From: a virus
Reading direction: 5' to 3' (one strand)
DNA: 64,000 nucleotides
Virus record (IMG/VR): IMGVR_UViG_3300013233_000235
Span: 140,042-204,041 of that record
In this document: in pieces, positions 1,806-58,716 of the stretch
Layout: each line of letters opens with the position of its first letter
Position numbering within the stretch: position 1 is the stretch's first letter
The notes under the pieces: model-generated
The model's database searches: none
What the model was told of the DNA's origin: nothing
Seen by the model: the letters and a program-made list of their open reading frames with translations, nothing else
Translations under genes and position numbers: made by a program

Positions 1806-4247
1806 ATGAAATCCAAACGGGATCGGAATAAACACGTCAAGACGGCGGTCAAGGCAAAGGGGCTTATACAAAGCATCGCTATCCCCGCTGACATTTATAG
1901 TGATAGGGCTATAGCGGCCAGCAGGCATAAAACTAAACCCTCGCGGGGTGGGCCATCTAATCTAGATAAGCTTTTAAAAAGGGCATCTGAAAGGGTGGGT
2001 GATAATGCAGCCTTAATGGATTTACTACCCGATATGGAGTTGCTGCAAGAAATTATTGTATCTGGCATAATGTCCCCTAAAGACATGATGACCAATGCGA
2101 TGAACCTATCACTTACCCCGCTGCGGAGTACAGATGTGCGATATTCCACAGACTTGGAGGGTAAGCTGCGGGAGTTTTTCACCACGGATGGCGGGTACAA
2201 CATTAAAGCCAAGGTGCAGATCATCTTAGAGGAGGCACTGTTTAGATACGGCAGTTATACGCTTGTATGTTTGCCAGTAAATCAGCTTGCCAAAATGGCC
2301 GCTGAAGAGAATGCCCGCGATGCCGACCGTAAAAAGATGTATGGCGCCACCGAGAAAGTAACCCACGGGTATCAGGGCATCATGGGTACCGCCCCGAGAC
2401 TGATCACCGGCGATACCATCGATTTCGGTATAACTGTGACGGAGGATGCCACATACCTAGGGTCTAGCAATGTTGATACAGCCACGGCTGACCGCTTTGT
2501 GGACGTCCCCGGCTTCCAAGCCATGTTCGATAAGTCCGTATTAACACTCATGCCCAATGGGGCCGATGCGGTCGACGGCGATACACACCCCATGGTGATA
2601 AAGATACCGGCGGATGCACTTCTGCCAGTCGTCAATCCATATGAGGTGGATGAACCGGTCGGATACTGGGTACCCATATCCCCAAAAACATCGATGCCCA
2701 TAACCCGCACCCGCAAAGACCGTAGCAATAAATTGCTAGATGCCGCGAAGAAGGCCGGTAAAGATGGTCCACTGGGCGATATGTTTAAGGTTTCAGGACT
2801 GGCTACTAATAAATCTAAGCTTGAGGATGTTGATAACGAGGAGTTGTTTATCAACTTTGAGCGATACCTAGATACACAACTAGCCAGGCAATTGAACGAG
2901 AAGGGTGCCGTTGGAGAAGAGCTTGAGGTCGGTAGTAGCAACGACGTATATCGGAGTGTATTCCGGAGAACACTCAAGTCCATGGAGACGCGGTTCCTGT
3001 ACCTTCCCGCCGAGTTAGTTACATGTGTGGCTGTTAAGTACACAGCCGATGGAATGGGTAAGTCGTTACTGGAGGCCGGCAAGACATATGGTATCCTTAG
3101 AGCGGTCTTATTGTTTTCCCGTGTAATGGCCAGCGTGAAGAATTCTGTTGGCCGCACCCGACTGGAAATAACCCTGGAAGAAGACGAGGAGAATCCCTCC
3201 GAGACAATCGAGGCCATACTACAAAACTACGCAGGATATCAGAGTGATATGTTGCCAATGGGTAGCATGAGTATGCCTGACATTGCCCAATCATTAAGAC
3301 GTGCTGGGGTTGAGGTGGCTGTCGATGGGGGGGATAACTGGCCAAACACCAAGACTGATATTGTCGAAGCGGCAAGATCCGGGTACGTACCCGATGAATC
3401 CATTTTGGAAGAACTGACCGCCTTGCAGTACAAGTCATTTGCACTAGACCCGAATATACTGGAGGATGTCATATCCGGTGATACCGCCACACGGGTGTTG
3501 ATTAAGAATAACCTGTTAACCAAGATCCTGGTGGGCTTATCCACTAAGGTGTCAGCCCACCTGACCCGACATGTGCGACAGTATACCAGAGCTTCAGGGG
3601 TGCTTACCAAAATCGTGCGTGATAGTTTGGAGGGCAGTGCCACTAGCGCAGATGTGCTGAGTGTTATAAATAGCATCACTGTCACTCTACCGGAGCCGGA
3701 TGGCGCCCGAATAGAAAGTCATACCGAGGTCTATGAAAAGTACAGCTCGATGATAGACGATGTTGTTGAGGCGCACATCACCGAGGATATGATGTCTGAG
3801 TTGATGGATGGCGATATAGACTCAGGCGTGATAGAGTCACTGCAAATCTCGGTGGCTGCCCATCTTAAACGGGAGTGGATGCGTAAACAGAATGTGATGA
3901 ACGATGTTACGGAGCTACTGTCCGATACCAAGGGTCTAGCCTCGGCCATATCCTCTCACAACAACGATATATTCAGCATGCTCAAGCCGGTGTTGCTTAG
4001 AGCTATGAAGGGTAATAGCAAACTTGATAAAGCCGCCGCCAAGTTGGAGGATAAACTTAGCAACGAGGAAGAGGATAACGAAGATACAGAATCGAGCGGG
4101 AATGAATCCACAGATGAAACGGGTGGTGGAGAGCCAGATGACACCAACCCACCGGATGAAACGGGTGGTGGAGAGCCAGATGACACCAACCCACCGGATG
4201 AAACGGGTGGTGACGGCATGAGCGGCGATGGCCCACCGGACTTATAG
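1806..4247 (+). CDS. Putative portal protein
   Basis: 813 aa. The portal is the dodecameric ring at the capsid vertex through which DNA is packaged and to which the tail joins. The middle of the protein has the layout of myovirus portals: a stretch around residues 400-470 (LPAELVTCVAVKYTADG, then SLLEAGKTYGILRAVLLFSR, then KNSVGRTRLEITL) resembles the T4 gp20-type region in which a 'Y-x-x-G' loop is followed by a helix and a basic 'R-x-x-x-R' strand. The length suits jumbo-phage portals, which are larger than that of T4. The last ~45 residues are an acidic Asp/Glu/Gly/Pro tail built from a tandem 14-residue repeat. The gene is followed at once by a tiny membrane-protein ORF. Identification is by pattern only; another large head/neck protein remains possible. 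Confidence 0.55.
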   Translation: MKSKRDRNKHVKTAVKAKGLIQSIAIPADIYSDRAIAASRHKTKPSRGGPSNLDKLLKRASERVGDNAALMDLLPDMELLQEIIVSGIMSPKDMMTNAMNLSLTPLRSTDVRYSTDLEGKLREFFTTDGGYNIKAKVQIILEEALFRYGSYTLVCLPVNQLAKMAAEENARDADRKKMYGATEKVTHGYQGIMGTAPRLITGDTIDFGITVTEDATYLGSSNVDTATADRFVDVPGFQAMFDKSVLTLMPNGADAVDGDTHPMVIKIPADALLPVVNPYEVDEPVGYWVPISPKTSMPITRTRKDRSNKLLDAAKKAGKDGPLGDMFKVSGLATNKSKLEDVDNEELFINFERYLDTQLARQLNEKGAVGEELEVGSSNDVYRSVFRRTLKSMETRFLYLPAELVTCVAVKYTADGMGKSLLEAGKTYGILRAVLLFSRVMASVKNSVGRTRLEITLEEDEENPSETIEAILQNYAGYQSDMLPMGSMSMPDIAQSLRRAGVEVAVDGGDNWPNTKTDIVEAARSGYVPDESILEELTALQYKSFALDPNILEDVISGDTATRVLIKNNLLTKILVGLSTKVSAHLTRHVRQYTRASGVLTKIVRDSLEGSATSADVLSVINSITVTLPEPDGARIESHTEVYEKYSSMIDDVVEAHITEDMMSELMDGDIDSGVIESLQISVAAHLKREWMRKQNVMNDVTELLSDTKGLASAISSHNNDIFSMLKPVLLRAMKGNSKLDKAAAKLEDKLSNEEEDNEDTESSGNESTDETGGGEPDDTNPPDETGGGEPDDTNPPDETGGDGMSGDGPPDL
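4113..4210 (+). repeat. 42-bp tandem repeat encoding acidic portal tail
   Basis: Two perfect 42-bp copies (4113-4154, 4155-4196) and a 14-bp partial third copy. Each full copy encodes DETGGGEPDDTNPP in frame at the C-terminus of the portal-like protein. Copy number probably varies by slippage. Confidence 0.95.
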
Positions 4248-9756: not shown

Positions 9757-9831
9757 TTTGTTTCCATACATTTTCAGAACCATATAACTACTATGAAGAG
9801 GCATCTTGATCTCTTACATTGGAGTTTAGTT
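9757..9831 (+). promoter_or_regulatory. Cassette 1: promoter, 5' hairpin and RBS
   Basis: ATTTGTTTCCATACATT block, CATATAACTACTATG core, hairpin with arms AAGAGG (9796-9801) and TCTCTT (9810-9815) closing with a G-U pair around loop CATCTTGA, then GGAG and the ATG at 9832. The hairpin probably lies at the extreme 5' end of the mRNA. Confidence 0.85.
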
Positions 9832-10440
9832 ATGAATGACTTATTAATGCGCTTAGTTGTCACCAGTGGTGTTAAGCTGAGATGTGACCACCGGGTGGTT
9901 GCGGTATCGCCCGATCGAGCCTGTACGTGGGCGGCGATACTAACCATTGGGGCTGAACACCCCATCCTCCCAACCATGGGTGGTTGGGATAATGTCCACG
10001 CCGTCCCACTAGCCACACCCGGTCGGGGGGTGCTAAACGACAACGATGCCACCCGACGGTTTACCCAGGCGATCGTAGATGGGGTCGGGCGTGGGCACGG
10101 GCTTCTATCAGACCGTACACGTGCCATACAGGGCCTCAACATGGGTGTGAGACTGCCGGAGTTGTTTGAGGGATACATGTGGTCAAAACTGGCCACAAGA
10201 CATGGGCTGGGTAACAGCCGGGCACTTTTTTACGCTGCATACGGGCTGTGCGAGCGGCAGGGCGACTGGTGGGAGGTACTGACCCACATGGAAGAGTACC
10301 AGCGTAGCGCACGCCAGCTTGTTGGGTTGGCTGGTGTGCGTACAGGGGGGGATCACGGGCTACTGTATATGAACAGTCGCCCGGAGTTACGAGATGCTGC
10401 ATTGGACACACTCATCGAGTATGTAAGGGGGGTGAAATGA
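9832..10440 (+). CDS. Hypothetical protein of the 'CTW' family
   Basis: 202 aa. The start is the ATG behind the cassette GGAG; an in-frame leader ATG at 9793 is part of the hairpin and not counted. Residues ~30-60 (SPDRACTWAAILTIGAEHPIL) match segments of the products at 16344 (PDRPCTWRTLHRLARTYPIV), 17680 (DDASCSWYTMRRLALLHPQV) and 19103 (GMSWISLGRIITNNPIL), defining a paralogous family. Helical, with no metal site visible. Four-base overlap with the next HTH gene, so probably a DNA-binding or regulatory operon partner; inference. Confidence 0.65.
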   Translation: MNDLLMRLVVTSGVKLRCDHRVVAVSPDRACTWAAILTIGAEHPILPTMGGWDNVHAVPLATPGRGVLNDNDATRRFTQAIVDGVGRGHGLLSDRTRAIQGLNMGVRLPELFEGYMWSKLATRHGLGNSRALFYAAYGLCERQGDWWEVLTHMEEYQRSARQLVGLAGVRTGGDHGLLYMNSRPELRDAALDTLIEYVRGVK

Positions 10441-11366
10441 GTAGGGTGGTTAAAGAGCAGTTCGGCCCACTCCACGAGATGTTGCTCGCATCAATGTCAT
10501 CCCATGGGCGTAACCGGCTGGTAAGTATGACCGGCATGGGTGTGGACGGCACCTGGTGGGATAGGGTGCTCACAAAGGGCCGTCGCATCACACCAACGAA
10601 GTTGTGGTCCTACCTGGATAACGTCTACGATCCCGCAAAGGACCCCTTTACCCCCCGTGAACTTATTGATGCCGCTATTGAGTGGGACTGGGGGGTAGGG
10701 GTAACACCAACCAATGCTGCGGCCACGAGCCCCATCGTTAAGGAGTTCTGGTGGATCAGGGTTAACCACCACATCAGCACTACCCAGCTGTGTAGGTCCA
10801 TACACATGTGCTCAAGCCAAGTGTACAACATGGAGTCCGGCGACCGAGGGTGCTCATTAGAGCACAGCCTGCAACTGGCAGAGGCATTTATAAGCATCGG
10901 TGTAAGCAGAGAGTTGGTAGCCGCCGCCATTCTCAGATCTTTCTGCCCAGATCCTCGCCGTCATGCGCTGATGGGTACCGTGCTGAACATACTGGTTATG
11001 AGCCGGTGTACGTTAGCACCACTGCTGCTGATCATGGGTGGGCCTGATCTAACCAGAGCCCGCTTCCTGACTGGAGAGGGTGTTTCAATAACCACCATTG
11101 CGGCATGGACCCGGCATGCTACAAATAAGTATAGAGAGTTACGATCTATACTGGAGACGGGGGCCGTTGGTAACAGGCAGGTATTGTGGGAGGCACTTAT
11201 GATGAGGGATGTGCCCCAAGGTGGATTGGCAAAACACCTCGGTACAAACCCACGCCTATTTAAATACATGCTAGCCATAGGCCGAGGGGTTGGGGAATTG
11301 GATCTCACTCCGATCCAAAATATGCCATTGCGGGACGATGTTATAACGGGGGTTTACGTATGCTAA
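10437..11366 (+). CDS. Predicted helix-turn-helix protein
   Basis: 309 aa. Residues ~100-150 (VNHHISTTQLCRSIHMCSSQVYNMESGDRGCSLEHSLQLAEAF) have the spacing of a Cro/C1 (XRE) HTH: a helix, a short turn, a recognition helix and the 'N-x-E-x-G-x-R' exit. A second helix-rich region (MMRDVPQGGLAKHLGTNPRLFKYML, ~245-270) could be another HTH. Translationally coupled on both sides. Probably a DNA-binding regulator; target unknown. Confidence 0.6.
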   Translation: MSRVVKEQFGPLHEMLLASMSSHGRNRLVSMTGMGVDGTWWDRVLTKGRRITPTKLWSYLDNVYDPAKDPFTPRELIDAAIEWDWGVGVTPTNAAATSPIVKEFWWIRVNHHISTTQLCRSIHMCSSQVYNMESGDRGCSLEHSLQLAEAFISIGVSRELVAAAILRSFCPDPRRHALMGTVLNILVMSRCTLAPLLLIMGGPDLTRARFLTGEGVSITTIAAWTRHATNKYRELRSILETGAVGNRQVLWEALMMRDVPQGGLAKHLGTNPRLFKYMLAIGRGVGELDLTPIQNMPLRDDVITGVYVC

Positions 11367-11749
11367 ATACGCTGGTTAAGCAGGGGCCGTTCACGGTCCC
11401 TACCGGTCTATCGGATAGAGCGCTACTGAGGGTAATATCGGCCAATATACCCCACATCCCCACCATGCACCGTGACCCCGCCGCAGTGGTGGTGGCATTG
11501 GCCATGGTGTGGGGAAGCATGTGCACAGAAGATCGACGAGATCTGTATGCCAACTACAGGACTGGATTGGACATTTACTTATGTCCAGACGAATACGCTG
11601 TCAAAATAAATGGGTTGAAATCACCCATAGTCGCAGCCGAATGCGGTATGTGGGTCAGATCACTACCAGCGGATGTCCGCAAACGGCTTACCCACATGGT
11701 GAGTAAAGCCATATCGAAATACCGGGCGGATACCCCGCCACCAACATAG
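11360..11749 (+). CDS. Small hypothetical protein
   Basis: 129 aa, ATG behind GGGGGTTTACGT and overlapping the previous gene by 7 bases. Predominantly helical (SDRALLRVISANIPHIP; VVVALAMVWGSMC; LPADVRKRLTHMVSKAISKY). Third gene of the first HTH operon; no recognised domain. Confidence 0.6.
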   Translation: MLNTLVKQGPFTVPTGLSDRALLRVISANIPHIPTMHRDPAAVVVALAMVWGSMCTEDRRDLYANYRTGLDIYLCPDEYAVKINGLKSPIVAAECGMWVRSLPADVRKRLTHMVSKAISKYRADTPPPT

Positions 11750-11778
11750 GGTGCACATTGCGTCCCGAGGAGCTAGTA

Positions 11779-12543
11779 ATGATTAAAACTGTAGAAGAAC
11801 TGAATGAAGTATTGCCCGAGGGCTACCTCGCCGAGATTGGTGAGGGTAGTGGGGATGACACACACCACCAGCTTACCGTGATGAGAGGGGATGCACTGAT
11901 CATTAAGTATCTGTACAATGCCAACAGGTTCCCTAACATCTGGGTAGATGGGGACTACCTCGCCATTGTACAAAGCATAGACCGTAGCTGCATCCGGTTC
12001 TATCGGTTGGACATGGTGGGACAGGGGATGCTCTACAGCCTCATCTTCACCGGGTATGTGTTCGAGGTACCCGTGAGTATGTTAGAGGATGTGGTGGCCA
12101 CTCTACGGGCTTTAGAACTGGCTATAACTGCATACACCCCTGGCTTGGTGGACGTCGAGTACGCATCTTTGGCGCCGGGGGCATCCGCGATGTTTAAACA
12201 CATGGCTGTATCAAGGGGGTTCATACAGAAGAACCGTGGGGCAAGGTTGCACAGCGATTACTACATCCGTGACCCCGAGAATGGTGTGTCGCTGTATGAG
12301 AACACACTTTACCGGGAGGGCCGATGGTTTGGAGAAGGGGAGTACACAACGTTCGACGTGCGTATGGATGCTACCCGCTGGTCTATCTCTAACAGGATTC
12401 GCACAGGCACTGGTAAGAGTATCAGTCAGTGCATCAACGTGTATCGCCCAGAGCTGGCGCCTGGCCAGGCAGCCATGGTGTCGCTCATAAACGAATCACA
12501 CATGGTGGAGTTATTAGCTAACTCCACTGTTGTGGTTGCATAG
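11779..12543 (+). CDS. Hypothetical protein
   Basis: 254 aa from the ATG at 11779 (MIKTVEELNEVLPEGYLAEIGEG), which has GAGGAG eight bases upstream; an in-frame codon at 11758 is too early. Mixed alpha/beta with an acidic N-terminus and no motif that I recognise. Last gene before the terminator at 12593. Confidence 0.65.
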   Translation: MIKTVEELNEVLPEGYLAEIGEGSGDDTHHQLTVMRGDALIIKYLYNANRFPNIWVDGDYLAIVQSIDRSCIRFYRLDMVGQGMLYSLIFTGYVFEVPVSMLEDVVATLRALELAITAYTPGLVDVEYASLAPGASAMFKHMAVSRGFIQKNRGARLHSDYYIRDPENGVSLYENTLYREGRWFGEGEYTTFDVRMDATRWSISNRIRTGTGKSISQCINVYRPELAPGQAAMVSLINESHMVELLANSTVVVA

Positions 12544-12592
12544 TGGGCACGGGGCTTTCTTAACCGTAAGCCCCATAGCTGTGTATGTGATG

Positions 12593-12617
12593 GCCCCCTC
12601 GGGGGCTTTCTTTTTTA
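12593..12617 (+). terminator. Terminator of cassette 2
   Basis: GCCCCC-TC-GGGGGC hairpin followed by TTTCTTTTTT. A second, weaker GGGGCTT...AAGCCCC hairpin lies just upstream (12551-12574). Confidence 0.9.
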
Positions 12618-12692
12618 TTTGTTTCCATACATTTTCAGAACTATATAACTTGTATGAAGAGACATCTTGATCTCTTGTATAGGAGTTTAGTT
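12618..12692 (+). promoter_or_regulatory. Cassette 2: promoter, 5' hairpin and RBS
   Basis: CTATATAACTTGTATG core; hairpin arms AAGAGA (12657-12662) and TCTCTT (12671-12676), loop CATCTTGA; AGGAG, then ATG at 12693. Confidence 0.9.
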
Positions 12693-13430
12693 ATGAGTAA
12701 AATGGTTAACTCGCTTAAGAAGGTGCCCAATACACCACGCAATTTCATGCACGAGGGGCGCCTTAGAAACCTCTTGGTACATATGCGGGAGTCGGACCCA
12801 TCCGCTATTACGCCAGAGAACATGTTCGTCATGGCGGACATCCCGGTAGATTTTACCCGGCTGGCTTTACCCGAGATCCACGCCAGTGGTGCGACCCAGC
12901 CGATTTCTATCGCCGCCCTGACACGTCTTATCAACGGTGTCCAAATTGGCCGCATACGGTCGACAGATGGGTCGTTTGTGGTGGCTGCCTTTCCTAGATG
13001 GTATGATTCGGGCGCTGGTGCTATTAGCGTCGCCATATGTGTGGAAGGGGCGACAAATTCGGCTCTGGATATTAACATTATACATGGTCGGCGTATACTC
13101 CATGTTGCATGTGGGCATAAGCGGGCGTGGATAATCACGGATCTGGGTGCATGGCTTGTAGGCTGGGATGTCGATAGCCAGGGATCTGTACATATCCAGG
13201 AAGGGGCGGTACCACTCGGCGATGGGGGCCCATTGTACAACACTCGCATCCAGATGATCTATAATGCGGATGTGGATGAAGATAACAATCTTACATACAC
13301 GGCCGTATGCTATAATGGGGGGGAACCAACCGCTGCATACGAGGTCTGCGTATCCCCGATGACAGGTCAACACGATGCACCGTCCGATATGAGTGTGTCC
13401 GAATTGATGGACACACTTAAAACAAACTAA
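12693..13430 (+). CDS. Hypothetical protein, paralogue of 62263-63030
   Basis: 245 aa. Shares an ordered set of segments with the product at 62263: 'ADIPVDFTRLALP' versus 'ADIPSDFVELLMP'; 'WIITDLGAWLVGWDVDSQG' versus 'WLITDAGAWLYRCGTDSGG'; 'GGPLYNTRIQMIYNADV' versus 'GGPLGGRVVNMVYSADV'; and a C-terminal 'YEVCVSPM...SVSELMDTL'. The WIITDLGAW strand also recalls propeller blades. Beta-rich; function unknown. The next gene follows after 10 bases. Confidence 0.7.
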   Translation: MSKMVNSLKKVPNTPRNFMHEGRLRNLLVHMRESDPSAITPENMFVMADIPVDFTRLALPEIHASGATQPISIAALTRLINGVQIGRIRSTDGSFVVAAFPRWYDSGAGAISVAICVEGATNSALDINIIHGRRILHVACGHKRAWIITDLGAWLVGWDVDSQGSVHIQEGAVPLGDGGPLYNTRIQMIYNADVDEDNNLTYTAVCYNGGEPTAAYEVCVSPMTGQHDAPSDMSVSELMDTLKTN

Positions 13431-13440
13431 GGAGTTAGAC

Positions 13441-13845
13441 ATGAACCGAGTAAGCTTAGTGAGAGCGCTAAAAGAGTTTTGTAAGTCCACGGGCACCAAG
13501 CTATCCGATTACGTGGTAGGTGCAGGTGGTGCCATGATGTTGGAGAGTCGCACTTTGCGCTCCGAAACCGATGATGTGGATGTTGCTACTTCACACCGGG
13601 TGTGGGATCTGTTGTACAAGTTACCACACCGGGAAGAGTATTTCGGGGACACTGAGATACGTGCCTTTGGCAAAGTGGATGTACACCTGGTTGATAACCC
13701 GGTGGTTATTGAAACACTGGTATCAAAAGAGGGTGTCATATATTGGGACCCTGAGACCGTGCTACGGTTCAAGCAATACCTCAACAGAGATAAGGATCAG
13801 AAGGATATAACCGCCCTAAAGAAGTACATCGCTAGTAATAAGTAA
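13441..13845 (+). CDS. Nucleotidyltransferase-fold protein
   Basis: 134 aa with AAGGAG upstream of the ATG. The arrangement G-A-G-G-A-M-M-L (27-34) followed by S-E-T-D-D-V-D-V (41-48) is the helix-turn plus 'DxD' metal site of DNA polymerase beta-like nucleotidyltransferases. A further acidic strand (GKVDVHLVD) and the terminal 'FKQYLNRDKDQKDITALKKYI' helix are like the AbiEii/MNT class that carries 'R-x-K-D-x-x-D-x-x-x-L'. Such proteins transfer NMPs to RNA or protein and occur in toxin-antitoxin systems. Which substrate applies here cannot be read from the sequence. Confidence 0.65.
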   Translation: MNRVSLVRALKEFCKSTGTKLSDYVVGAGGAMMLESRTLRSETDDVDVATSHRVWDLLYKLPHREEYFGDTEIRAFGKVDVHLVDNPVVIETLVSKEGVIYWDPETVLRFKQYLNRDKDQKDITALKKYIASNK

Positions 13846-13851
13846 TAAGTC

Positions 13852-13876
13852 AGCCCCTTCGGGGGCTTTCCTTTTT
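13852..13876 (+). terminator. Terminator of cassette 3
   Basis: AGCCCC-TTCG-GGGGCT hairpin followed by TTCCTTTTT. Confidence 0.9.
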
Positions 13877-13954
13877 ATTTGTTTCCATCAATTCTTAGAA
13901 CTATATAACTTGTATGAAGAGACACTTTGATCTCTTATTGTGAAGGATGTTGAT
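13877..13954 (+). promoter_or_regulatory. Cassette 3: promoter, 5' hairpin and RBS
   Basis: CTATATAACTTGTATG core; arms AAGAGA (13917-13922) and TCTCTT (13931-13936), loop CACTTTGA; then GAAGGATG before the ATG at 13955. The segment between hairpin and start has diverged from the other copies and contains an in-frame TGA. Confidence 0.85.
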
Positions 13955-14047
13955 ATGAGTAAAGTATGTAAGAACCCCACAGGCCCAAATGGCCGGGTTA
14001 GTTACGGACTCGCCCACGGTACCACCCTCTCCAACGAGCCACACTAG
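13955..14047 (+). CDS. Very small hypothetical protein
   Basis: 30 codons (MSKVCKNPTGPNGRVSYG...) directly behind the cassette 3 ribosome site. It begins with the MSK that most cassette-driven proteins share. It may be a real leader gene or a degraded remnant; the next gene starts 13 bases after its stop. Confidence 0.4.
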   Translation: MSKVCKNPTGPNGRVSYGLAHGTTLSNEPH

Positions 14048-14060
14048 GGATAAAGGCGCA

Positions 14061-14690
14061 ATGACCAACCATAGGGTTAGCCCCAACTACACACCCCCAG
14101 CAACCCCGCTAGGCGATTATCTGCGTGCCGTCATGGCGCACCAGGATATAACCTGGAGGGGACTTTCCAATCGCGTGGGATGTACACCCATCTCATTGGC
14201 CGCCATCGCATCAGGTGAATCCCGCTTTCCGGATGTATCCCAAGAAAACCTTCTGATGTATTGTAAACACGTTTACAAAGATAGGTTTTGTAAGGATGCT
14301 TGGCGCAGAGCTATGTCCGGCATACCAACGGGTAATAAGGAGGTGCACGCAGCAATGGCCACCCCTTTGGGGGACGCTATGCGGGAGTTCCGCCGAGAGC
14401 ATGGGATCACCTATAGCCAGTTCGCCCGCATGTGTGGTATCAATCACACGTACCTGCGGTCAATCGAGCGTGGTAAAGTGAAACTTAGCTTTGCCAACGG
14501 CGTTTATATATCAAAAGGTATACGCGCCAATGGGGACCTAGATGTGGCAGCGACACGCCTACTTGATTTGGTGTCTAGCACCATGGTGCAACCCACTTAC
14601 ACGGATATGGCTATTAGAATATCCGCCCTTAATGAAACCAAACAACGCAGGCTTTCTGACCTGCTACTTAAGTTGGAGACAGAGAAATGA
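14061..14690 (+). CDS. Double XRE-type helix-turn-helix protein
   Basis: 209 aa from the ATG at 14061 (AAAGG upstream). It contains two Cro/C1-type HTH domains arising from an internal duplication. The first runs from ~14 to 68 (ATPLGDYLRAVMAHQDITWRG...ISLAAIASGES), the second from ~98 to 150 (ATPLGDAMREFRREHGITYSQ...TYLRSIERGKV). Both open with the same ATPLGD. A C-terminal helix (LNETKQRRLSDLLLKLETEK) may dimerise. Likely a transcription regulator or DNA-binding protein; four-base overlap with another HTH gene. Confidence 0.85.
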   Translation: MTNHRVSPNYTPPATPLGDYLRAVMAHQDITWRGLSNRVGCTPISLAAIASGESRFPDVSQENLLMYCKHVYKDRFCKDAWRRAMSGIPTGNKEVHAAMATPLGDAMREFRREHGITYSQFARMCGINHTYLRSIERGKVKLSFANGVYISKGIRANGDLDVAATRLLDLVSSTMVQPTYTDMAIRISALNETKQRRLSDLLLKLETEK

Positions 14691-14929
14691 ATAATGCCGT
14701 AACAAGATACATCAAACAGTTCGTACCAATGCATCCCGAGCGGATTTCCAAGATGGGTAAGGCCATCGGGTGGGATGGTAATGAGCTATACCACTGGCTG
14801 CGTGGTGAACGCCCAAACCCATCCTTGGCGTACATGGAGCGGATCTCCCGTTACCTGAGCCGGGGTAACCCTGAGTTTGAACCAATCCGGTTCGATCAGC
14901 TAATAGAAGGAGTGAACAAACGTGATTGA
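14687..14929 (+). CDS. Small XRE-like helix-turn-helix protein
   Basis: 80 aa; almost the whole protein is one HTH unit: 'RISKMGKAIGWDGNELYHWLRGERPNPSLAYMERISRYL', with the recognition helix followed by the 'R-G-E-R-P-N-P-S' exit typical of Cro/C1 family members. Overlaps both neighbours. Confidence 0.75.
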   Translation: MNNAVTRYIKQFVPMHPERISKMGKAIGWDGNELYHWLRGERPNPSLAYMERISRYLSRGNPEFEPIRFDQLIEGVNKRD

Positions 14930-15440
14930 GAAAACAGATGTAAGAAAGCTGTGGCTCATGGGTCGCATGGCCGGTATGGTTGACACCATCCGTGGTGAGC
15001 GGATGGCTGGTAATATACACATACCCATTGGGGAGCATATGCGGGATGGTGTGTACAAGCACCAGTTTGTGAACGATAAGCTGGTACGGTCCATTGCGCA
15101 GATCCGAGCGGTGATATTGGCGGCCTTAGTCGCCCCACCGGCTGAGTACCTGCCGATACTGGCACTGCTGAGCCCCGAAAACCCCGTCCCATATGGTAAA
15201 GGTTGGCCTGAAGAGTATGCCCCCGTGCATATGGCGGTGCACGGGTGCTACTTACTAAACACCCCCCTGCTATTGACCGAATTGGTGGAGGTGGTTACCT
15301 ACAGCCTCTTCGACATCCCTGATGAAAACATGGATGTGGCCATTGCCGCGATTCGGTCCTACTACGCTATGGGGGCCACCGGGGAGTCGCTAGCATTGTA
15401 CGAGGCATTAGAGGTCTATGACACCATCCCAAAAGGGTAG
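14922..15440 (+). CDS. Hypothetical helical protein
   Basis: 172 aa from a GTG with AAGGAG seven bases upstream. All-helical, with no HTH that I can recognise, yet embedded in the HTH operon with overlaps at both ends. Possible partner or cofactor of the neighbouring DNA-binding proteins; inference from context only. Confidence 0.6.
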   Translation: MIEKTDVRKLWLMGRMAGMVDTIRGERMAGNIHIPIGEHMRDGVYKHQFVNDKLVRSIAQIRAVILAALVAPPAEYLPILALLSPENPVPYGKGWPEEYAPVHMAVHGCYLLNTPLLLTELVEVVTYSLFDIPDENMDVAIAAIRSYYAMGATGESLALYEALEVYDTIPKG

Positions 15441-15687
15441 ATGCACATTGCCCCCAACCTCACCATGTGGTGCATGGTTGGATAAGCGTGTACGTGAGGG
15501 GGTGATAACTAGGGGCCAGTGGGTGGCTGCACTACCCATCGCGTATGGTACCTGGAGGAAGATCGAACTGGGTCGTATCCCCATTACCGAGGCGACAGCC
15601 ATGCGCCTACAGCGGACTGTTATACGTGTGTTGGGTCACGACCACTTAGATAGTTGGTGGGGTTGTGTTAACACACACCCGCTGTAA
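15418..15687 (+). CDS. Small helix-turn-helix protein
   Basis: Up to 89 aa. The HTH is at 'VREGVITRGQWVAALPIAYGTWRKIELGRIPITEATAMRLQRTV'. The annotated ATG lies inside the previous gene; a TTG at 15478 in the same frame is an alternative that would retain the whole HTH. Last gene before a strong terminator. Confidence 0.6.
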   Translation: MTPSQKGRCTLPPTSPCGAWLDKRVREGVITRGQWVAALPIAYGTWRKIELGRIPITEATAMRLQRTVIRVLGHDHLDSWWGCVNTHPL

Positions 15688-15700
15688 ATTGCGGCATAAC

Positions 15701-15733
15701 AAGACTCCCTTAATCGGGAGTCTTTCTTTTTTA
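15701..15733 (+). terminator. Terminator of cassette 4
   Basis: AAGACTCCC / GGGAGTCTT hairpin with a 7-nt loop and TTTCTTTTTT. The stem sequence differs completely from the GCCCC class, so the terminator position is conserved rather than its sequence. Confidence 0.9.
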
Positions 15734-15808
15734 TTTGTTTCCATACATTCTTAAGACTATATAACTTGTATGAAGAGACGCATTGATCTCTTGTATAGGA
15801 GTTTAGTT
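15734..15808 (+). promoter_or_regulatory. Cassette 4: promoter, 5' hairpin and RBS
   Basis: CTATATAACTTGTATG core; arms AAGAGA (15773-15778) and TCTCTT (15787-15792), loop CGCATTGA; AGGAG; ATG at 15809. Confidence 0.9.
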
Positions 15809-16351
15809 ATGAACGAAGAATTATCTAAAGCGTGTGCATCCATAGCGGATACCCCGCAGTTGGAATTGACATTTGATGTCAACCGCATTAGCGGTATGCC
15901 CGATGGGACAAGTGCCAATATCTTGTCACGATTGTTGGGTGTTCCGCTATCATTCCTAACTGCGGTTGCCGGGGTGAGTTGCAAGAAAGCCGCTCTGGCG
16001 AATATTTGCACAGCAGTAACACGCCCCGGCCTATCGGTGGTATACGCCGTACGGGGCGGTACACTGCATGTACAATTCTTGGTTGCTGGGGAGTACGAGC
16101 ATCTACGGATAGATGCCCCTGAGGATCCCATTCTAGGCATGGGGGTGTCGGGGTTAACCGCATGGGTGGTTACCACACAGGGTGTCTACAAACACCAGTT
16201 GAATGACTTCGAGCCCCCGCAAGTGTTTACATACCCTATAACGGGTATAACGGGCATGGCGGTAAGTGGTACGGGGATCATCATTGATGTCTTGCTGCCC
16301 GACGGTGTTGAGCGATCAATGCATCTGCGTGTGGAGGCCGATAGTGAATAA
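15809..16351 (+). CDS. Hypothetical protein, distant relative of the 12693/62263 family
   Basis: 180 aa. The C-terminal half carries the 'LTAWVVTTQGVYKHQLNDFEPPQVFTYPITGITGMAVSG' strand pair that corresponds in place to 'WIITDLGAWLVGWDVDSQG' of 12693. Beta-rich, no active site seen. Overlaps the next gene by eight bases. Confidence 0.6.
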   Translation: MNEELSKACASIADTPQLELTFDVNRISGMPDGTSANILSRLLGVPLSFLTAVAGVSCKKAALANICTAVTRPGLSVVYAVRGGTLHVQFLVAGEYEHLRIDAPEDPILGMGVSGLTAWVVTTQGVYKHQLNDFEPPQVFTYPITGITGMAVSGTGIIIDVLLPDGVERSMHLRVEADSE

Positions 16352-16967
16352 GTCCATATTAATGGTCTGCGACCCCAAGATCTTTGCTGTGCAGGATCGG
16401 TATCTGGTAACCAGACCTGACAGACCCTGTACGTGGAGAACACTGCATCGGCTGGCCCGCACTTACCCAATCGTTGACAGATACCTAAGTGTTGGGTGCC
16501 TGCTGCCAAATCCTGCCCCACACCGCCGTAGCAAGTTCATAGACGAAGGCACCGCCGAACTGTACGGCATTATCGCAGACTATGTGGCCAGTGGGTACGC
16601 CCACTATAAGTTCGGAGTAGAGGTCGCCAAACACCTGCGCGCCACCACATGTGTGCAGAGCATGAGTGGTACGCTGAACTGGCTGGCTATCTTACCACAC
16701 GTCTATCCGGAGTTACGCCCACTTGTGTTAAAGATACATGGCTTGGATGGGTTAGATAGCGTTATGGTTGCTAAGGCCGTGCGGTTAGCTATAAGCATAT
16801 CTAAGTACAGGCACCGCCGGACCACCTATTCCGAGGTATACGGAATAACGCCAGCAAACGAACGACAGTTGTTCAGCAGAGGATACACCTGCAAACATAA
16901 AGAAAAGATTATATCTAACCTAAAAGAGGGGGGCGAGTTATGGGATACATCATCGGTTCTATGGTAA
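16344..16967 (+). CDS. Hypothetical protein of the 'CTW' family
   Basis: 207 aa from a GTG with GGAGG six bases upstream. Residues ~22-43 (RPDRPCTWRTLHRLARTYPIV) match the products at 9832 and 17680. The C-terminal region has a helix pair (YSEVYGITPANERQLFSRGYTCKHKEKI) that could be an HTH, matching 'YTAMYGLTNREVSSVFSIG' in 17680 and 'YREVYGLDKQQAKAACELVW' in 19103. Part of a five-gene overlapping operon. Confidence 0.65.
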   Translation: MNKSILMVCDPKIFAVQDRYLVTRPDRPCTWRTLHRLARTYPIVDRYLSVGCLLPNPAPHRRSKFIDEGTAELYGIIADYVASGYAHYKFGVEVAKHLRATTCVQSMSGTLNWLAILPHVYPELRPLVLKIHGLDGLDSVMVAKAVRLAISISKYRHRRTTYSEVYGITPANERQLFSRGYTCKHKEKIISNLKEGGELWDTSSVLW

Positions 16968-17680
16968 AGAGGCTACGGGAAGTACAAGGGCTATCTGTAA
17001 AGGGCATGGCCCTCTTATACGGGGTTGGTCACCAAAGTCTCCGTAATGCCGAACACGGGGTTTACTCGCTAACCCCGGATGCTTTCCAAAGTATCGCAAT
17101 GGCTAGCGAGGAAGTGTATGCTAAAGCGGGGTTTACAAGGGCAGAGATGGCCACTGCCGCTGCTGACATGTACCTGGCTAGACACCGTGAAGTCATGAAA
17201 GACTTCTCATCGAAGAAGGTTGGGCCACGTAAAGAGTATAAGGTGCTGTTACGTAACGCTCGCCTGAATGGACACATATCGTCAACGCTGCTAGCCCAAG
17301 AAATGGGCATAACCCCATACAACTTCGGTCAGTTGGAATGCGCGGGGAGATCTGTTAAGGGCCCCATGTTACACCGATGGTTATTAGCACTTGAACAATA
17401 CCAGTGTGAGCGGCCCGTGCTTATAGAGATAGTGGCTGCCAGATATGGGATCTCTATAAGTATAGCTGGGGAGGTGTTCAACCAGATATACAGTGCTATC
17501 CTGGCCAGCGGTATCACCACCCAACGGTACCTTAAAGAAACGGGTACCCGGTCAACTACGCTACAGGTGCTGAATGTGCACCGCAGGGTGATGTGGAACA
17601 TGTGCATGGCCCACAATCGGTGGGTGGACGATAATGGTTTATTAGGCGATAGTTGTAAAATAAATATGGAGGAGCTATAA
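16940..17680 (+). CDS. XRE-like helix-turn-helix protein
   Basis: 246 aa with GAGGGGGG before the ATG. N-terminal HTH at ~8-55 (MVKRLREVQGLSVKGMALLYGVGHQSLRNAEHGVYSLTPD) has the canonical Cro/C1 spacing. A second copy at ~95-150 (RLNGHISSTLLAQEMGITPYNFGQLECAG) is degenerate. It overlaps its neighbours at both ends. A DNA-binding role is likely. Confidence 0.75.
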   Translation: MGYIIGSMVKRLREVQGLSVKGMALLYGVGHQSLRNAEHGVYSLTPDAFQSIAMASEEVYAKAGFTRAEMATAAADMYLARHREVMKDFSSKKVGPRKEYKVLLRNARLNGHISSTLLAQEMGITPYNFGQLECAGRSVKGPMLHRWLLALEQYQCERPVLIEIVAARYGISISIAGEVFNQIYSAILASGITTQRYLKETGTRSTTLQVLNVHRRVMWNMCMAHNRWVDDNGLLGDSCKINMEEL

Positions 17681-18348
17681 TGAACATTGGTTTACAACGG
17701 GCGCTGGCAGGGTCCATAACGGGTGTGGTCAGCGAGACTGCCCGGCGCGCCATACAGCGGGACGATGCATCTTGCAGTTGGTACACAATGCGTAGACTGG
17801 CCCTACTGCATCCGCAGGTTGGTACAGCACTCAACCTTAACAGGCTGCTACCCACGGTCATTCGCAACACCACCTCGCAGACGGTGTGTGATAACACCGG
17901 GGAGTTCTACAGCGAGATCAGTACACGGCTTAAGATAACACATGCAGACCACCCTGATCTGGAGGCGTGTCTGCGCCACCTGGGTACAGACACGCTGAGA
18001 CCGCACCCTGCCGATGCGATCAACTGGGTAAATATGCGTTACTCACCTGGGCACCTGTGGACCCTATTTGGCAAGATGTACGGACTAGGCGAGTTATCTA
18101 CCCACCATCTGAAGCAAGCTGTGTGGCTGGCTGCCGCCCTGGGCACGTACACGGTTCTGCCCAAAGATTACACGGCAATGTATGGGCTCACCAACCGTGA
18201 GGTCAGTTCGGTATTCTCCATTGGGCGAGGGACTAGAGAAAAGTTGGCGGCCCTGGATAAATGGTCCCAGGTGTCTCCACGGGTCTCAGCCCATGGGGAC
18301 CTGCCCATATTAACGCACTGGCTGATGTTATTGCAACTACACTCGTAA
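17680..18348 (+). CDS. Hypothetical protein of the 'CTW' family
   Basis: 222 aa; its ATG shares a base with the upstream TAA and has GGAG ahead. DDASCSWYTMRRLALLHPQV near residues 27-46 and 'DYTAMYGLTNREVSSVFSIGRGTREKL' near 168-195 align with the products at 9832/16344 and 19103. The second segment looks like an HTH. Probably a DNA-binding paralogue. Confidence 0.65.
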   Translation: MNIGLQRALAGSITGVVSETARRAIQRDDASCSWYTMRRLALLHPQVGTALNLNRLLPTVIRNTTSQTVCDNTGEFYSEISTRLKITHADHPDLEACLRHLGTDTLRPHPADAINWVNMRYSPGHLWTLFGKMYGLGELSTHHLKQAVWLAAALGTYTVLPKDYTAMYGLTNREVSSVFSIGRGTREKLAALDKWSQVSPRVSAHGDLPILTHWLMLLQLHS

Positions 18349-18407
18349 CAAACAAATCTGGGTATACTACCCTAACTAACGCCGCAGATGCGGCAAGGAT
18401 ATTGACT

Positions 18408-19106
18408 ATGGAAAACCAAAGAATAGAAGCAGTTGAAACCAATGCGGCAATTTTAGAGGTCATGTTAAACTGCGGGTATGACCCCACCTACAGTCACGAC
18501 ATGGCCGCAGGCCGGGTGACATTGGCCGACGCGACATTGGCCCGCATACACGCGGAGGACCACCGTATACCCGCCCCCCTCCGCCGTATTGTCGGCGGGA
18601 TTGACGAGCTGGTAGATCAGGAGCTGAATAGATTGGGGCACACGGCGGTCTCAGTGGAAGCCAATCTTGGCAAAGGCCTATGCTATTGGGCCGGATGGAA
18701 ATATAGGTATGTCAAAAGTGGTCAACGTATGTATCACGCACCAGCCCCCGTGGACATGTTGCTAGAGGCACACAGGATGTCTGGGGAGGCTGTGGATACC
18801 GGCTTACTGAAAGCCGTGCTCACAGTGGACGTATACAGCGACCGAGTGCAACGTATGGCTGTGGCGGCCACGATGTTCCGGACGGCCTACACACTGTCTC
18901 ATCCAGAGATGGCTGTGGCTGTAGGGTTGGAAAGGCCCGAGCTAGGGCGCTACCTATGTATGGGTGGGGATGAGTCGGGTGTACTGTTAGATGCGTCCAA
19001 GACGTTTTATCGGTACATGTGGACTCACCGGGTTAAGCTTGGCGAGCTCGTCCCCGACTGGCTCAACCCTGTTGATTTCAACAGCGCTTATGGTGAATCG
19101 ATATGA
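18408..19106 (+). CDS. Hypothetical protein in HTH operon
   Basis: 232 aa from the ATG at 18408 (MENQRIEAVETNAAILEVML), AAGGATATTG upstream; the open frame extends back to 18261 inside the previous gene without a better start. Helical, with 'AVAVGLERPELGRYLCMGGDESG' near 185-207 in the position of a possible HTH. Overlaps the next gene by four bases. Confidence 0.55.
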   Translation: MENQRIEAVETNAAILEVMLNCGYDPTYSHDMAAGRVTLADATLARIHAEDHRIPAPLRRIVGGIDELVDQELNRLGHTAVSVEANLGKGLCYWAGWKYRYVKSGQRMYHAPAPVDMLLEAHRMSGEAVDTGLLKAVLTVDVYSDRVQRMAVAATMFRTAYTLSHPEMAVAVGLERPELGRYLCMGGDESGVLLDASKTFYRYMWTHRVKLGELVPDWLNPVDFNSAYGESI

Positions 19107-19696
19107 ATGAGTTGCTGACGAAGGTCTTGGGTGACCGCCAGCTAAACTTGACCCCGTCTGAAGAGAGGGCTATTTATACACCCGGCGTCGGTATGAGCTG
19201 GATAAGTCTTGGCAGGATTATCACCAATAACCCCATCCTGATGGGGCAGGGCTATTACGCCCATCTGTCAGCTGTACACTGCGATCCAAAAACATGCGTG
19301 TTAGTGGGTGGGGATGAGATGTCTACGGCTCTGGCTATCTCGATGAAAGAGTTAGCTACCTATGGTGATTCCACGTCATTGGATAACCATAAGTACTTCC
19401 TATCCAGGGGTGCCAAGCCTACTGGCATCATGGCGAGCTTGTGGATATACCACTTAGAGCGACATGGCATAACCAGTGCATCAGCGCTGTACAGAGAGGT
19501 GTATGGCCTAGATAAGCAACAGGCTAAGGCGGCGTGCGAGCTTGTCTGGGTGACCACCATGCGTGGGAGGACGGTCAGCAGGATCGCCAGCTATGCGGGT
19601 TACCGCGCCAAAGAGGTTTCCCAACTATGGGTGGTTGGGGCAAAGTCGTCCAAGAAGGATGAGGTAATCCACCGTTTACGGGAACTCATGGGGTAG
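19103..19696 (+). CDS. Hypothetical protein of the 'CTW' family
   Basis: 197 aa. 'GVGMSWISLGRIITNNPILMGQGYY' (~29-53) and 'ALYREVYGLDKQQAKAACELVW' correspond to the two conserved blocks of 16344 and 17680. 'TVSRIASYAGYRAKEVSQLWVVGAKSSKKDEVIHRL' at the C-terminus has HTH-like spacing. Last gene of the operon. Confidence 0.6.
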   Translation: MNELLTKVLGDRQLNLTPSEERAIYTPGVGMSWISLGRIITNNPILMGQGYYAHLSAVHCDPKTCVLVGGDEMSTALAISMKELATYGDSTSLDNHKYFLSRGAKPTGIMASLWIYHLERHGITSASALYREVYGLDKQQAKAACELVWVTTMRGRTVSRIASYAGYRAKEVSQLWVVGAKSSKKDEVIHRLRELMG

Positions 19697-21473: not shown

Positions 21474-21549
21474 ATTTGCTTCCCTATATTCTTAAGCCTA
21501 TATAACTTGTATGAAGAGACGCATTGATCTCTTGTATAGGAGTTTAGTT
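21474..21549 (+). promoter_or_regulatory. Cassette 6: promoter, 5' hairpin and RBS (DNA ligase)
   Basis: TTCCCTATATTCTTAAGCC block, CTATATAACTTGTATG core; arms AAGAGA (21514-21519) and TCTCTT (21528-21533), loop CGCATTGA; AGGAG; ATG at 21550. Nearly identical to cassette 11, which drives a ligase paralogue. Confidence 0.9.
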
Positions 21550-23481
21550 ATGAGTGAAAGATATATCAGAGATCTGAGCCTTAAGTTACAGAGGTGGACA
21601 GATGCGTATGCAAGTGGCACCCCACTTGTGTCAGATAGTTTATACGATGCCGTCCATAAGGAGTTGGACAAAGCGGTCGGCGGATCGGCTGAGAAGTTCG
21701 TACCGCAGACCCTGACAGTGGCCACCACTGGTAAGCACCGCGTCCCCATGACCACTCTCAAAGATGTTTACACGATTGAGGATATTGGCAGATTCGTGAA
21801 TGGTTTTCCAGAGGGTACCCGCTTTATAGCGGAGCCAAAGATGGATGGGATGGCTATCAGCCTAACATATGAAAACGGCGATCTGGTCAAAGGGTTAACC
21901 CGGGGTGATTATGTTAATGGGGAGCTCTGTACTGAATCCATCAGCTACGTCCCAAGCGTGCCTATAACACTCGGTCTGGATATCGATATGGAGGTTCGGG
22001 GTGAGCTTGTTGTTACCCACGAAAGCTTTACACCAGACATGGGTGTATCGCCACGCAACTTTGCCGCAGGCAGCCTTATGAAGGGGGACCAAGAGCGGAA
22101 CAAGCATCTAACGTTCATCCCATACGCTGTGACAGTGGCGCGCGGTGAATACGGGGAGTTAACAAGTCTGCACGACAAACTCATGTGGCTGGGGACCATC
22201 GGGTTCCAAACCAATCCGGCCAAGATACTGCTGGGCACCCGCGTACAAATCATCGATTGGATGAAGGATATGCATGAAAGTTGTGACCCGCAGGCACGGC
22301 CAGAAGCTTACATGTGCGCGATTGATGGGTTAGTGCTAAAGGTCGATGACTCTGAGCTGTTTGCCGACGCTGGTGGTACCAGCAAGCACCCCCACGGGGC
22401 GATCGCCTTTAAGTACAACTCAGCTAGCGCTGTCACCACGATCGTGGCTGTGGAGGAGTCTATGGGCCGCTTTGGCGAGATAACTCCAGTGGCTATCGTG
22501 GAGCCTGTGACCATCGATGGTAATGTGGTTACCCGTGCCACCCTCCACAACTACGCCAAGGTTCTAAGCAAGGGTGTATTCATTGGTGGGGAATGCGTAC
22601 TGATGCGGGCAGGTGGTGTGATACCGGACCTGGTTGCTATGACGGAGAATGTTGACAAGTTGCCAATCGTATCCCCGCCATCTGTATGCCCAAGCTGTGG
22701 TGCCGCAACAATCGTCACCGCCGACCTTATCAACACCACCTGTAGTAGAGAAGACTGGTCGGAATGTAAGGCGCGTGCGGTGCGTACTGGGGCATACATC
22801 GTGTCTAAGAAGGTGCTAAATATACAGGGGCTTGGTGGAAAGACTATCGAGAAGTTGTATGACCTTGGTGTCAAGTTAACCACCTTGCACCATGTGCTGA
22901 CACTTTCCAAGGATGATCTGGTAAAGGCCGCAGGTAACGCTATGGGGAAAAAGGTATATGACCGCATCCAGTCGGCGGCTGAGATGTCATGCCAAACATT
23001 CATAAAGGCCATGTGCATAAAGGAAATCGGCAACCATGCATCCGTTATATTGTCCGAGCATGTGGGTCACCACCCCCAGGGTTTTCTCGACTTATCGGGG
23101 GAATCTATCGGGCTTATCAATGGTTTAGCCGAAGATGAAGTTGGGCATTTGGTGGAATTCTTTGGCGATACCGCGAGGCAAGCGGCGGCATGGCGTGGTC
23201 ATGATCTGGTGACAGACCCTATGTCGCCTGAAGATGACCCCGCTAATAAAAACGCTGATGAGTTGGTAGCTAGGTTCAGCAACGCTGGATTCGATACGTC
23301 TCACAAGGTGTGTGTAACCGGATCGTTTGAGGGTTGTAACCGCGATGATATTCACAAGGCCCTAAGCAACGCTGGGTTCACACCCACGAAATCAGCCAGT
23401 GCGAATACCGCCCTAATAGCCGGCGATAAACCGTCGGCATCAAAGGTGGATAAATCGGGCGCGATGTTCTGTGCGTTTTAA
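21550..23481 (+). CDS. ligA: NAD+-dependent DNA ligase
   Basis: 643 aa, close to full bacterial LigA length. It seals nicks using NAD+, forming ligase-AMP on Lys97. Domains in order: Ia with 'YASGTPLVSDSLYD' (20-33); adenylation domain with AEPKMDG (catalytic Lys97) and 'MEVRGEL'; OB fold ('RATLHNY...GVFIGGECVLMRAGGVIP'); Cys4 zinc finger at Cys380, Cys383, Cys398 and Cys406; helix-hairpin-helix region (ALGxx-like 'MCIKEIGNHASVIL'); and a C-terminal BRCT domain (~585-643, HKVCVTGSFEG). All catalytic motifs look intact. Start chosen behind the cassette ribosome site; a leader ATG at 21511 is inside the hairpin. Confidence 0.97.
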   Translation: MSERYIRDLSLKLQRWTDAYASGTPLVSDSLYDAVHKELDKAVGGSAEKFVPQTLTVATTGKHRVPMTTLKDVYTIEDIGRFVNGFPEGTRFIAEPKMDGMAISLTYENGDLVKGLTRGDYVNGELCTESISYVPSVPITLGLDIDMEVRGELVVTHESFTPDMGVSPRNFAAGSLMKGDQERNKHLTFIPYAVTVARGEYGELTSLHDKLMWLGTIGFQTNPAKILLGTRVQIIDWMKDMHESCDPQARPEAYMCAIDGLVLKVDDSELFADAGGTSKHPHGAIAFKYNSASAVTTIVAVEESMGRFGEITPVAIVEPVTIDGNVVTRATLHNYAKVLSKGVFIGGECVLMRAGGVIPDLVAMTENVDKLPIVSPPSVCPSCGAATIVTADLINTTCSREDWSECKARAVRTGAYIVSKKVLNIQGLGGKTIEKLYDLGVKLTTLHHVLTLSKDDLVKAAGNAMGKKVYDRIQSAAEMSCQTFIKAMCIKEIGNHASVILSEHVGHHPQGFLDLSGESIGLINGLAEDEVGHLVEFFGDTARQAAAWRGHDLVTDPMSPEDDPANKNADELVARFSNAGFDTSHKVCVTGSFEGCNRDDIHKALSNAGFTPTKSASANTALIAGDKPSASKVDKSGAMFCAF

Positions 23482-34937: not shown

Positions 34938-34942
34938 TATGA

Positions 34943-36598: not shown

Positions 36599-36610
36599 AT
36601 GTTACCCCTA

Positions 36611-37306
36611 CTAAACTGAGGTTGATTGCAGGTTATCGTGCAAGGCCTTAGATATGTTCAGTGCCCGTAGATCTGGCTCCGTCATCCCGTCCAGTAACCG
36701 ATCAATGGAGGCTGCCGCATTAAACACCTTCCCACGATTAATGAGGATGGCTTTGTAAAGAGCCTGTGCAGCAGCCAAGGTATCAATGGTCAAATATCCA
36801 CGCTCGAACGATGGGATCGCCCCGGGTGCGTCATTGCCCACCGACGGCATGATCCCAGAGAATAAGGTAACCTCGCCGAAGCCTTCAGTGTATGCGTAGA
36901 CGACTCCGCTGACATCCGATACAGCTTGGCTGCCAGACTTAATAAGCAGACCATCATACATGAACCGTGCCTTCAATGTGTTGATCCGGGCCTGCTTCAG
37001 TTGCATACGTCTTTTTGCTAACAGTTCCATGACTGTCAAATCCCTAGCTGCTCGCACAACAGTGATTAGTGAGTCTTCAGCAATCCGATCAACTGTCACC
37101 AGTTTCTGCCAATCCTCGCAGGGTGGCGTGGTGGTGGTGATAGGGATGATCTTAAGCACATTCGCTAGTTGTAGCGCCCCGCTTAAGACCCGTGGTACCA
37201 GGTCAGCAGGTACCCCGTATTTACCGCACACTTCTTTAACTGCGTCCATGGTGTATTCCATTGGACCAGCTACCCGTAACGTACCTCTATAGATCTCGCA
37301 ATACAT
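36611..37306 (-). CDS. Hypothetical protein between fibre copies
   Basis: 231 aa; begins MYCEIYRG, like MYCTIMCS of the gene at 30986. Mostly helical with a Ser/Gly-rich C-terminal segment (PGAIPSFERGYLTIDTLAAAQALYKAIL). It interrupts the tandem fibres, so it could be a chaperone or accessory fibre, but there is no motif to support this. Confidence 0.6.
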   Translation of the reverse strand: MYCEIYRGTLRVAGPMEYTMDAVKEVCGKYGVPADLVPRVLSGALQLANVLKIIPITTTTPPCEDWQKLVTVDRIAEDSLITVVRAARDLTVMELLAKRRMQLKQARINTLKARFMYDGLLIKSGSQAVSDVSGVVYAYTEGFGEVTLFSGIMPSVGNDAPGAIPSFERGYLTIDTLAAAQALYKAILINRGKVFNAAASIDRLLDGMTEPDLRALNISKALHDNLQSTSV

Positions 37307-37315
37307 GTCTTATAC

Positions 37316-58641: not shown

Positions 58642-58716
58642 TTTGTTTCCCTATATTCTTAAGCCTATATAACTTGTATGAAGAGACGCATTGATCTCTT
58701 ACTTTGGAGTTTAGTT
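58642..58716 (+). promoter_or_regulatory. Cassette 11: promoter, 5' hairpin and RBS
   Basis: TTTCCCTATATTCTTAAGCC block, CTATATAACTTGTATG core; arms AAGAGA (58681-58686) and TCTCTT (58695-58700), loop CGCATTGA; GGAG; ATG at 58717. Upstream block and loop are the same as in the ligase cassette. Confidence 0.9.

Follow-up and report, generated by a model that had tools for sequence, protein, structure and literature searches.

Organization and phage setting of the locus

The window analyzed, i.e., the whole stretch of 64,000 nt, comprises bases 140042 to 204041 of the 204,041-base IMG/VR record IMGVR_UViG_3300013233_000235. Its three operons, A to C, consist of about a dozen small genes packed closely together, which overlap by ATGA or by short stretches and have plausible ribosome sites. 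An earlier note on this DNA had described three such units, and they do exist, but with wider limits than it gave: as set by early-promoter-like cores at 9780, 13901, and 15757, they span 9780 to 12543, 13901 to 15687, and 15757 to 19696. Operon A therefore takes in the gene at 11779, with no further early core between 9780 and 12641, and operon C begins at its core with the gene at 15809 and not at 16344. For C4, a start at 18408 is more likely than one at 18261 because AAGGA lies just upstream, and an 88-nt overlap disappears with the change. The features, with the members of the paralogous family described below labeled CTW, are as follows.

9780..9800, +, early-promoter-like core of operon A, CCATATAACTACTATGAAGAG, with a terminator-like hairpin and a T-run ahead of it
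9832..10440, +, A1, CTW family member, 202 aa, pI 8.5 (pairwise comparison and leave-one-out profile)
10437..11366, +, A2, 309 aa, basic, possible Cro/C1 HTH at residues 113-161 (HTH_31 E = 0.0061, below cut-off; HTH_VI 0.0075)
11360..11749, +, A3, 129 aa, basic orphan without HTH evidence
11779..12543, +, A4, 254 aa, acidic orphan that ends operon A
13901..13921, +, early-promoter-like core of operon B
13955..14047, +, B1, possible 30-aa leader ORF
14061..14690, +, B2, two tandem Cro/C1-type HTHs (residues about 14-74 and 99-157), pI 9.6 (Pfam above cut-off, internal repeat)
14687..14929, +, B3, 80 aa, probable HTH (HTH_31 E = 0.0038, below cut-off)
14922..15440, +, B4, 172 aa, acidic orphan, no HTH
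15418..15687, +, B5, 89 aa, pI 10.1, HTH-like (by likeness to B2 only, 0 of 2,000 shuffles)
15757..15777, +, early-promoter-like core of operon C
15809..16351, +, C0, 180 aa, acidic orphan, first gene of operon C
16344..16967, +, C1, CTW family member, 207 aa, pI 9.5
16940..17680, +, C2, 246 aa, N-terminal Cro/C1-type HTH at residues 2-62 (Pfam HTH_3, local fold matches)
17680..18348, +, C3, CTW family member, 222 aa, modeled as all-helical
18408..19106, +, C4, 232 aa, acidic orphan (start shifted from 18261 on ribosome-site grounds)
19103..19696, +, C5, CTW family member, 197 aa, pI 9.1

Ten of the 12 locus proteins compared have a pI of >8.4, against 8 of the 54 remaining proteins of ≥100 aa in the window (Fisher p = 1e-5, in a comparison chosen after the values had been seen); the two that are not basic are B4 (14922) and C4 (18408). 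As a post hoc comparison, this basic bias has a supportive role only for a nucleic-acid-binding reading of the locus.

Judged by its genes, the phage is a divergent relative of the RNAP-encoding (phiKZ-like) jumbo phages, since it has a gp129-like gene, an RNAP beta-like gene, and a weak tubulin-like gene. We took a multisubunit phage RNAP together with a gp129-like virion protein as the mark of a phiKZ-like jumbo phage, and both are present in the record. The gene at 1806-4247 is akin to phiKZ gp129-like virion proteins (22-28% identity), its product having IMG/VR relatives at just 23-30% identity; positions 134331-135833 of the record encode an RNA polymerase beta-like protein (29% identity, E = 1e-65). 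The phage-tubulin-like (PhuZ/TubZ-like) gene near record position 62847 is recognized weakly (TubZ_C_2, E = 8e-4, below cut-off) and has a GGTSGASGS motif. A single-sequence chimallin query (PhiPA3 gp053) against the phage's own, possibly incomplete record gave no match. Elsewhere in the window, 21511-23481 encodes the one recognizable NAD-dependent DNA ligase. The long genes at 58678-60207 and 60835-62151 have in common a CxxCG zinc-finger-like stretch (E = 0.002), the former with a ligase-like start, and no Pfam ligase domain was found in either; they may be diverged non-catalytic ligase paralogs. The - strand has three long paralogs at 33219-39001 (29-31% identity), whose position and repeat content hint at a possible tail-fibre-like nature.

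Putative early promoters at the operon boundaries

The core CTATATAACTnnTATGAAGAG (≤3 mismatches) occurs 11 times in the window (9780-63145), with 0 copies expected in shuffled sequence, and 23 times in the whole 204-kb record, always on the + strand; no other IMG/VR contig has one in the form searched. It consists of an AT-rich TATATAAC, six bases, and a G, and one copy heads each of operons A, B, and C. The early promoters of the virion RNAP (vRNAP) in phiKZ-related phages likewise have an AT-rich block-(6N)-G form, are repeated, and head operons (PMC7598289, PMC5312081). We defined such a promoter as a conserved AT-rich block of ~10 nt with a start site 6 nt downstream, placed ahead of operons and repeated in the genome, and in sequence form TATATAAC-(6N)-G, with its 23 copies on one strand, agrees with this definition. 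Because the cores share the published vRNAP promoter form, operons A to C are predicted to be immediate-early genes, with transcription by the virion RNAP as the natural inference.

A terminator-like hairpin with a T-run lies 5' of almost every core, and most cores are situated between such a hairpin and a gene start. On the 3' side there is a conserved palindrome, AAGAG-10 nt-CTCTT, intact at 21 of the 23 cores. In full, it reads AAGAG(A)-N-(T)CTCTT (AAGAGACACTTTGATCTCTT), with 5-bp arms and an overall length of 20 bp, and begins at the predicted transcription start of nearly every cassette; its arms could also fold as a 5' RNA hairpin just ahead of the ribosome site. Most virion-RNAP early operons are probably marked by the resulting terminator-promoter-palindrome boundary, which recurs ~23 times in the record, each time on the + strand. 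A recurring reading frame, MKRxxDLLxxSLVM, runs from the upstream ATG of the leader. If transcription starts at the G of the core, this ATG would not be transcribed whole, and the downstream ATGs would therefore be the real starts.

Cro/C1-type HTH domains

We regarded a Cro/C1-type (XRE) HTH as secure when Pfam HTH_3 or HTH_31 was matched above the gathering score. Among the locus proteins, B2 and C2 alone reach this score, with B3 and A2 below the cut-off. B2 (14061) passes the cut-offs of HTH_3 (1.8e-9) and HTH_31 (1e-9), also matches HTH_26 (1.1e-5), and has its HTH recognized by PHROGs, PDB sequences, and PADLOC. Its first half repeats its own HTH (score 52 against a shuffle mean of 21; 0 of 2,000 shuffles), which, together with the Pfam matches, bears out the proposal of two HTHs in this protein. 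The HTH proposed for C2 (16940) is likewise upheld, HTH_3 being matched above the cut-off (2.3e-5). Compared with the compact five-helix fold of XRE domains, the modeled N terminus of C2 has helices at 3-16, 20-27, 31-38, 46-53, and 57-62 and gives local matches to XRE structures (e.g., 8tac; 51 columns, 1.4 A) with a probability near 1, but with E values of about 0.1-0.5 and a mean pLDDT of 48.

Three further HTHs had been suggested, for 14687, 15418, and, as probable, 10437, and these are candidates. B3 (14687) and A2 (10437) give HTH_31 signals (0.0038 and 0.0061) that fall below the cut-off, while B5 (15418) aligns to the HTH of B2 (0 of 2,000 shuffles) but has no Pfam match. Pfam and other sequence searches found no HTH in A3 (11360), B4 (14922), or C4 (18408), and no Pfam HTH was matched by B5, A3, B4, C4, or the four CTW proteins. 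By sequence, then, two HTH proteins with three Cro/C1-type domains (B2, C2) are certain and up to three more (B3, A2, B5) are possible, so that the dozen DNA-binding proteins of the earlier note are an overcount, at least twofold. A scan of the whole record for HTH_3 and HTH_31 recovered just 14061, 14687, and 16940. Since 32 phiKZ-like records show 0 to 3 HTH_3 matches each, two or three clear HTH genes are at the upper end of normal for such records.

Extra HTHs spotted by eye in A2, C2, C4, C0, and the CTW proteins received no support from Pfam searches with fragments. A home-made HTH mask placed cores of A2, C0, C2, C3, and C5 at or above the 95% level of shuffles; it was tuned by eye and is not relied on, and none of these candidates exceeded shuffled controls with a local profile. 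Searches of 50,697 phage records gave weak HTH-core similarity and nothing else for B2, and nothing significant for A2 and C4. Peptide-pattern scans of IMG/VR with C2, B2, and LigA recovered no relatives.

A family of four paralogous proteins

A1, C1, C3, and C5 (9832, 16344, 17680, and 19103) had been said to share a CTW block, a claim that would fall if the blocks failed to align statistically. On running this check, we found that the blocks do align: pairwise E values are 3e-14 for C1-C3, 1e-5 for A1-C1, and 7e-5 for A1-C5, with composition shuffles in agreement for all three pairs, and leave-one-out profiles regained the omitted member in every case (C1, 3e-17; C3, 4e-10; C5, 3e-9; A1, 2e-8). 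No other locus protein was convincingly recovered by these profiles. By sequence, the four proteins are thus a genuine paralogous family. Just ten columns are invariant across them, including W34, P45, W116, G135, and L136 of 17680. The C-terminal 'V/M-Y-G-L/I' block also attributed to the family proved to be two merged sites, near residues 135 and 168 of 17680; what holds of it is the G135-L136 pair, invariant in all four, with the 'VYGL' of 19103 corresponding to the first site. Likeness of A2 to B4 and of B4 to C5 (~1 and 9 of 2,000 shuffles) was not significant given the 120 pairs tested, and shuffle comparison gave no support for A2, C2, and C4 being homologous, a relationship that would imply a duplicated CTW+HTH module.

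The family has four copies in this record, with no further copy in the rest of the phage. The CTW profile recovered no relative from 44 phiKZ-like records, the sole match (E = 0.018, 41 positions within a 2465-codon frame) being judged chance. Nothing significant was found with C3 and C5 in 50,697 phage records, and no relatives were found with C1 and C3 in IMG/VR peptide-pattern scans or with C5 in a species-genome scan. None of the CTW proteins matched a Pfam HTH, a PHROG, or a PDB sequence. Modeled by AlphaFold from the alignment of all four sequences, C3 (17680) is helical throughout (pLDDT 65, pTM 0.62), and its helices between 141 and 198, which include some of the best-predicted residues, follow an HTH-like order. 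The model has no significant fold match in the PDB or the viral library, and the family is for this reason new to the collections searched. For the HTH character suggested for these proteins, the structure prediction is neutral, speaking neither for nor against it; an HTH recognizable by sequence or fold, which we required for counting them as HTH proteins, was not found.

Other early cassettes also contain duplicated families (12654-13430/62263-63030, E = 9e-16; 19777-20403/20824-21444, E = 8e-7), and early-gene duplication is therefore general here and not specific to HTH genes.

Possible functions

The products of operons A to C are most likely early proteins that bind DNA or RNA and have the host as their target. 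In its full form, to which we give somewhat less than even confidence, this reading holds that they are immediate-early accessory operons of a phiKZ-like jumbo phage whose products bind host nucleic acid, chiefly the chromosome, and reshape or silence host expression. Once the DNA enters the cell, the virion RNAP would transcribe the operons from their TATATAAC-(6N)-G cores, as the motif suggests. The products would include at least two proteins with the three Cro/C1-type HTH domains, one of them with a local fold match, and the four members of the expanded, basic, all-helical orphan CTW family, for which nucleic acid binding is predicted from charge and operon company. In the cytoplasm, both kinds would most likely bind host nucleic acid, mainly the host chromosome, and alter host gene expression or silence it in the course of takeover. 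A role of this sort has been proposed for gp094 of the nucleus-forming Erwinia phage RAY: this accessory XRE protein is bound to the host chromosome in an H-NS-like pattern, and the authors of that work speculate on host-gene regulation (PMC10299810). What makes host takeover plausible is the combination of vRNAP-type cores, mostly basic DNA-binding or orphan proteins, and the precedent of an XRE protein of a nucleus-forming phage on host DNA; the acidic orphans B4, C4, A4, and C0 do not fit a DNA-binding role.

A serious rival, though we hold it to be unlikely, is that the HTH proteins are feedback regulators that shut off the phage's own early operons through the AAGAG(A)-N-(T)CTCTT palindrome. 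Cro/C1 proteins usually bind palindromic operators, and as nearly all cores share the palindrome (intact at 21 of 23), one regulator could control all of them. However, the RNA hairpin that the arms could form would explain their conservation without a protein, the invariance of the arms makes DNA and RNA roles inseparable, and the DNA of phiKZ-like phages is probably shielded at the early stage of infection. The idea of a superinfection-immunity set, which the earlier note had offered beside host takeover, or of a lysogeny repressor set draws on the Cro/C1-type HTH domains as a typical feature of phage repressors. It lacks specific support and is very improbable, given that PHROG and Pfam matches span the HTH core only and reveal no repressor oligomerization or protease domain, that the operons are codirectional with no divergent repressor/Cro pair seen, and that phiKZ-like phages are lytic.

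Antitoxin-like or counter-defence factors that neutralize or repress host toxin-antitoxin or defence operons are suggested by matches of B2 and C2 to HipB-type and HigA/MqsA-type antitoxins in NCBIfam (far below cut-off), of B2 to CapH and C-proteins in PADLOC, by two tandem HigA-like genes in a relative, and by a gene weakly like the DUF6036 nucleotidyltransferase family just upstream of operon B. We consider this improbable: all the matches are generic to the shared HTH core, none reaches a specific family cut-off, and no toxin partner was recognized in the same operon. The small gene in question (13441-13845; E = 9e-4, below cut-off) lies directly upstream of operon B, yet in a separate cassette. 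Alternatively, the CTW family might act on ribosomes or RNA, with the HTH neighbors as unrelated passengers; early phiKZ proteins such as phiKZ014 are on ribosomes immediately after infection (PMC10914614), and the CTW proteins are basic, with an all-helical modeled member that has no HTH match. This appears rather unlikely, as no sequence or fold kinship to known ribosome-binding proteins was found, and an HTH gene in operon C and a possible one in operon A are interspersed with the CTW genes.

Action of the early products on host nucleic acid thus remains our preferred reading. Its more ambitious extension, that the CTW proteins are a new early, basic, all-helical nucleic-acid-binding family that arose by in-phage duplication and works with HTH partners in combinatorial nucleoid remodeling or transcription control in giant phages, is speculative and has a low probability in our estimate. 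Nucleus-forming jumbo phages need the host subdued before their nucleus takes shape, and for most of the accessory genes that they express early no function is known. If the early assignment holds, the locus would offer a small, testable set, namely, two HTH proteins that are certain and three that are candidates, together with the orphan family of four, and the promoter motif should mark most of this phage's early operons.

Comparison with known systems

Like the vRNAP early operons of phiKZ, AR9, and phiR1-37 (PMC7598289, PMC5312081), the predicted early operons described here are headed by a recurring AT-rich core with a G after six further bases, in a phage that encodes a multisubunit RNAP, as these phages do. 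They differ in the sequence of the core, TATATAAC, and in the conserved 20-bp palindrome that comes after it.

In the phiKZ-like record IMGVR_UViG_3300048854_000232, three HTH_3 matches lie within about 4 kb, comparable to the HTH set here; two of the XRE genes are HigA/VapI-like and all three are single-domain, unlike B2 with its tandem HTHs, and the CTW profile finds nothing in that record. In this related jumbo-phage contig (243500-252000; ORFs 2284, 5482, and 5823), two HigA-like XRE genes stand in tandem with a third nearby, and no toxin-like partner was noticed.

RAY gp094 and the locus proteins are alike as Cro/C1 proteins (gp094 has an HTH_3 domain) and predicted DNA binders, gp094 belonging to the accessory genome of a phiKZ-like phage. 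BLAST detects no similarity of gp094 to B2 or C2, the Pfam family alone being held in common. The RAY protein comes from one gene of 96 aa, whereas here B2 carries two HTHs and C2 extends into a long C-terminal part.
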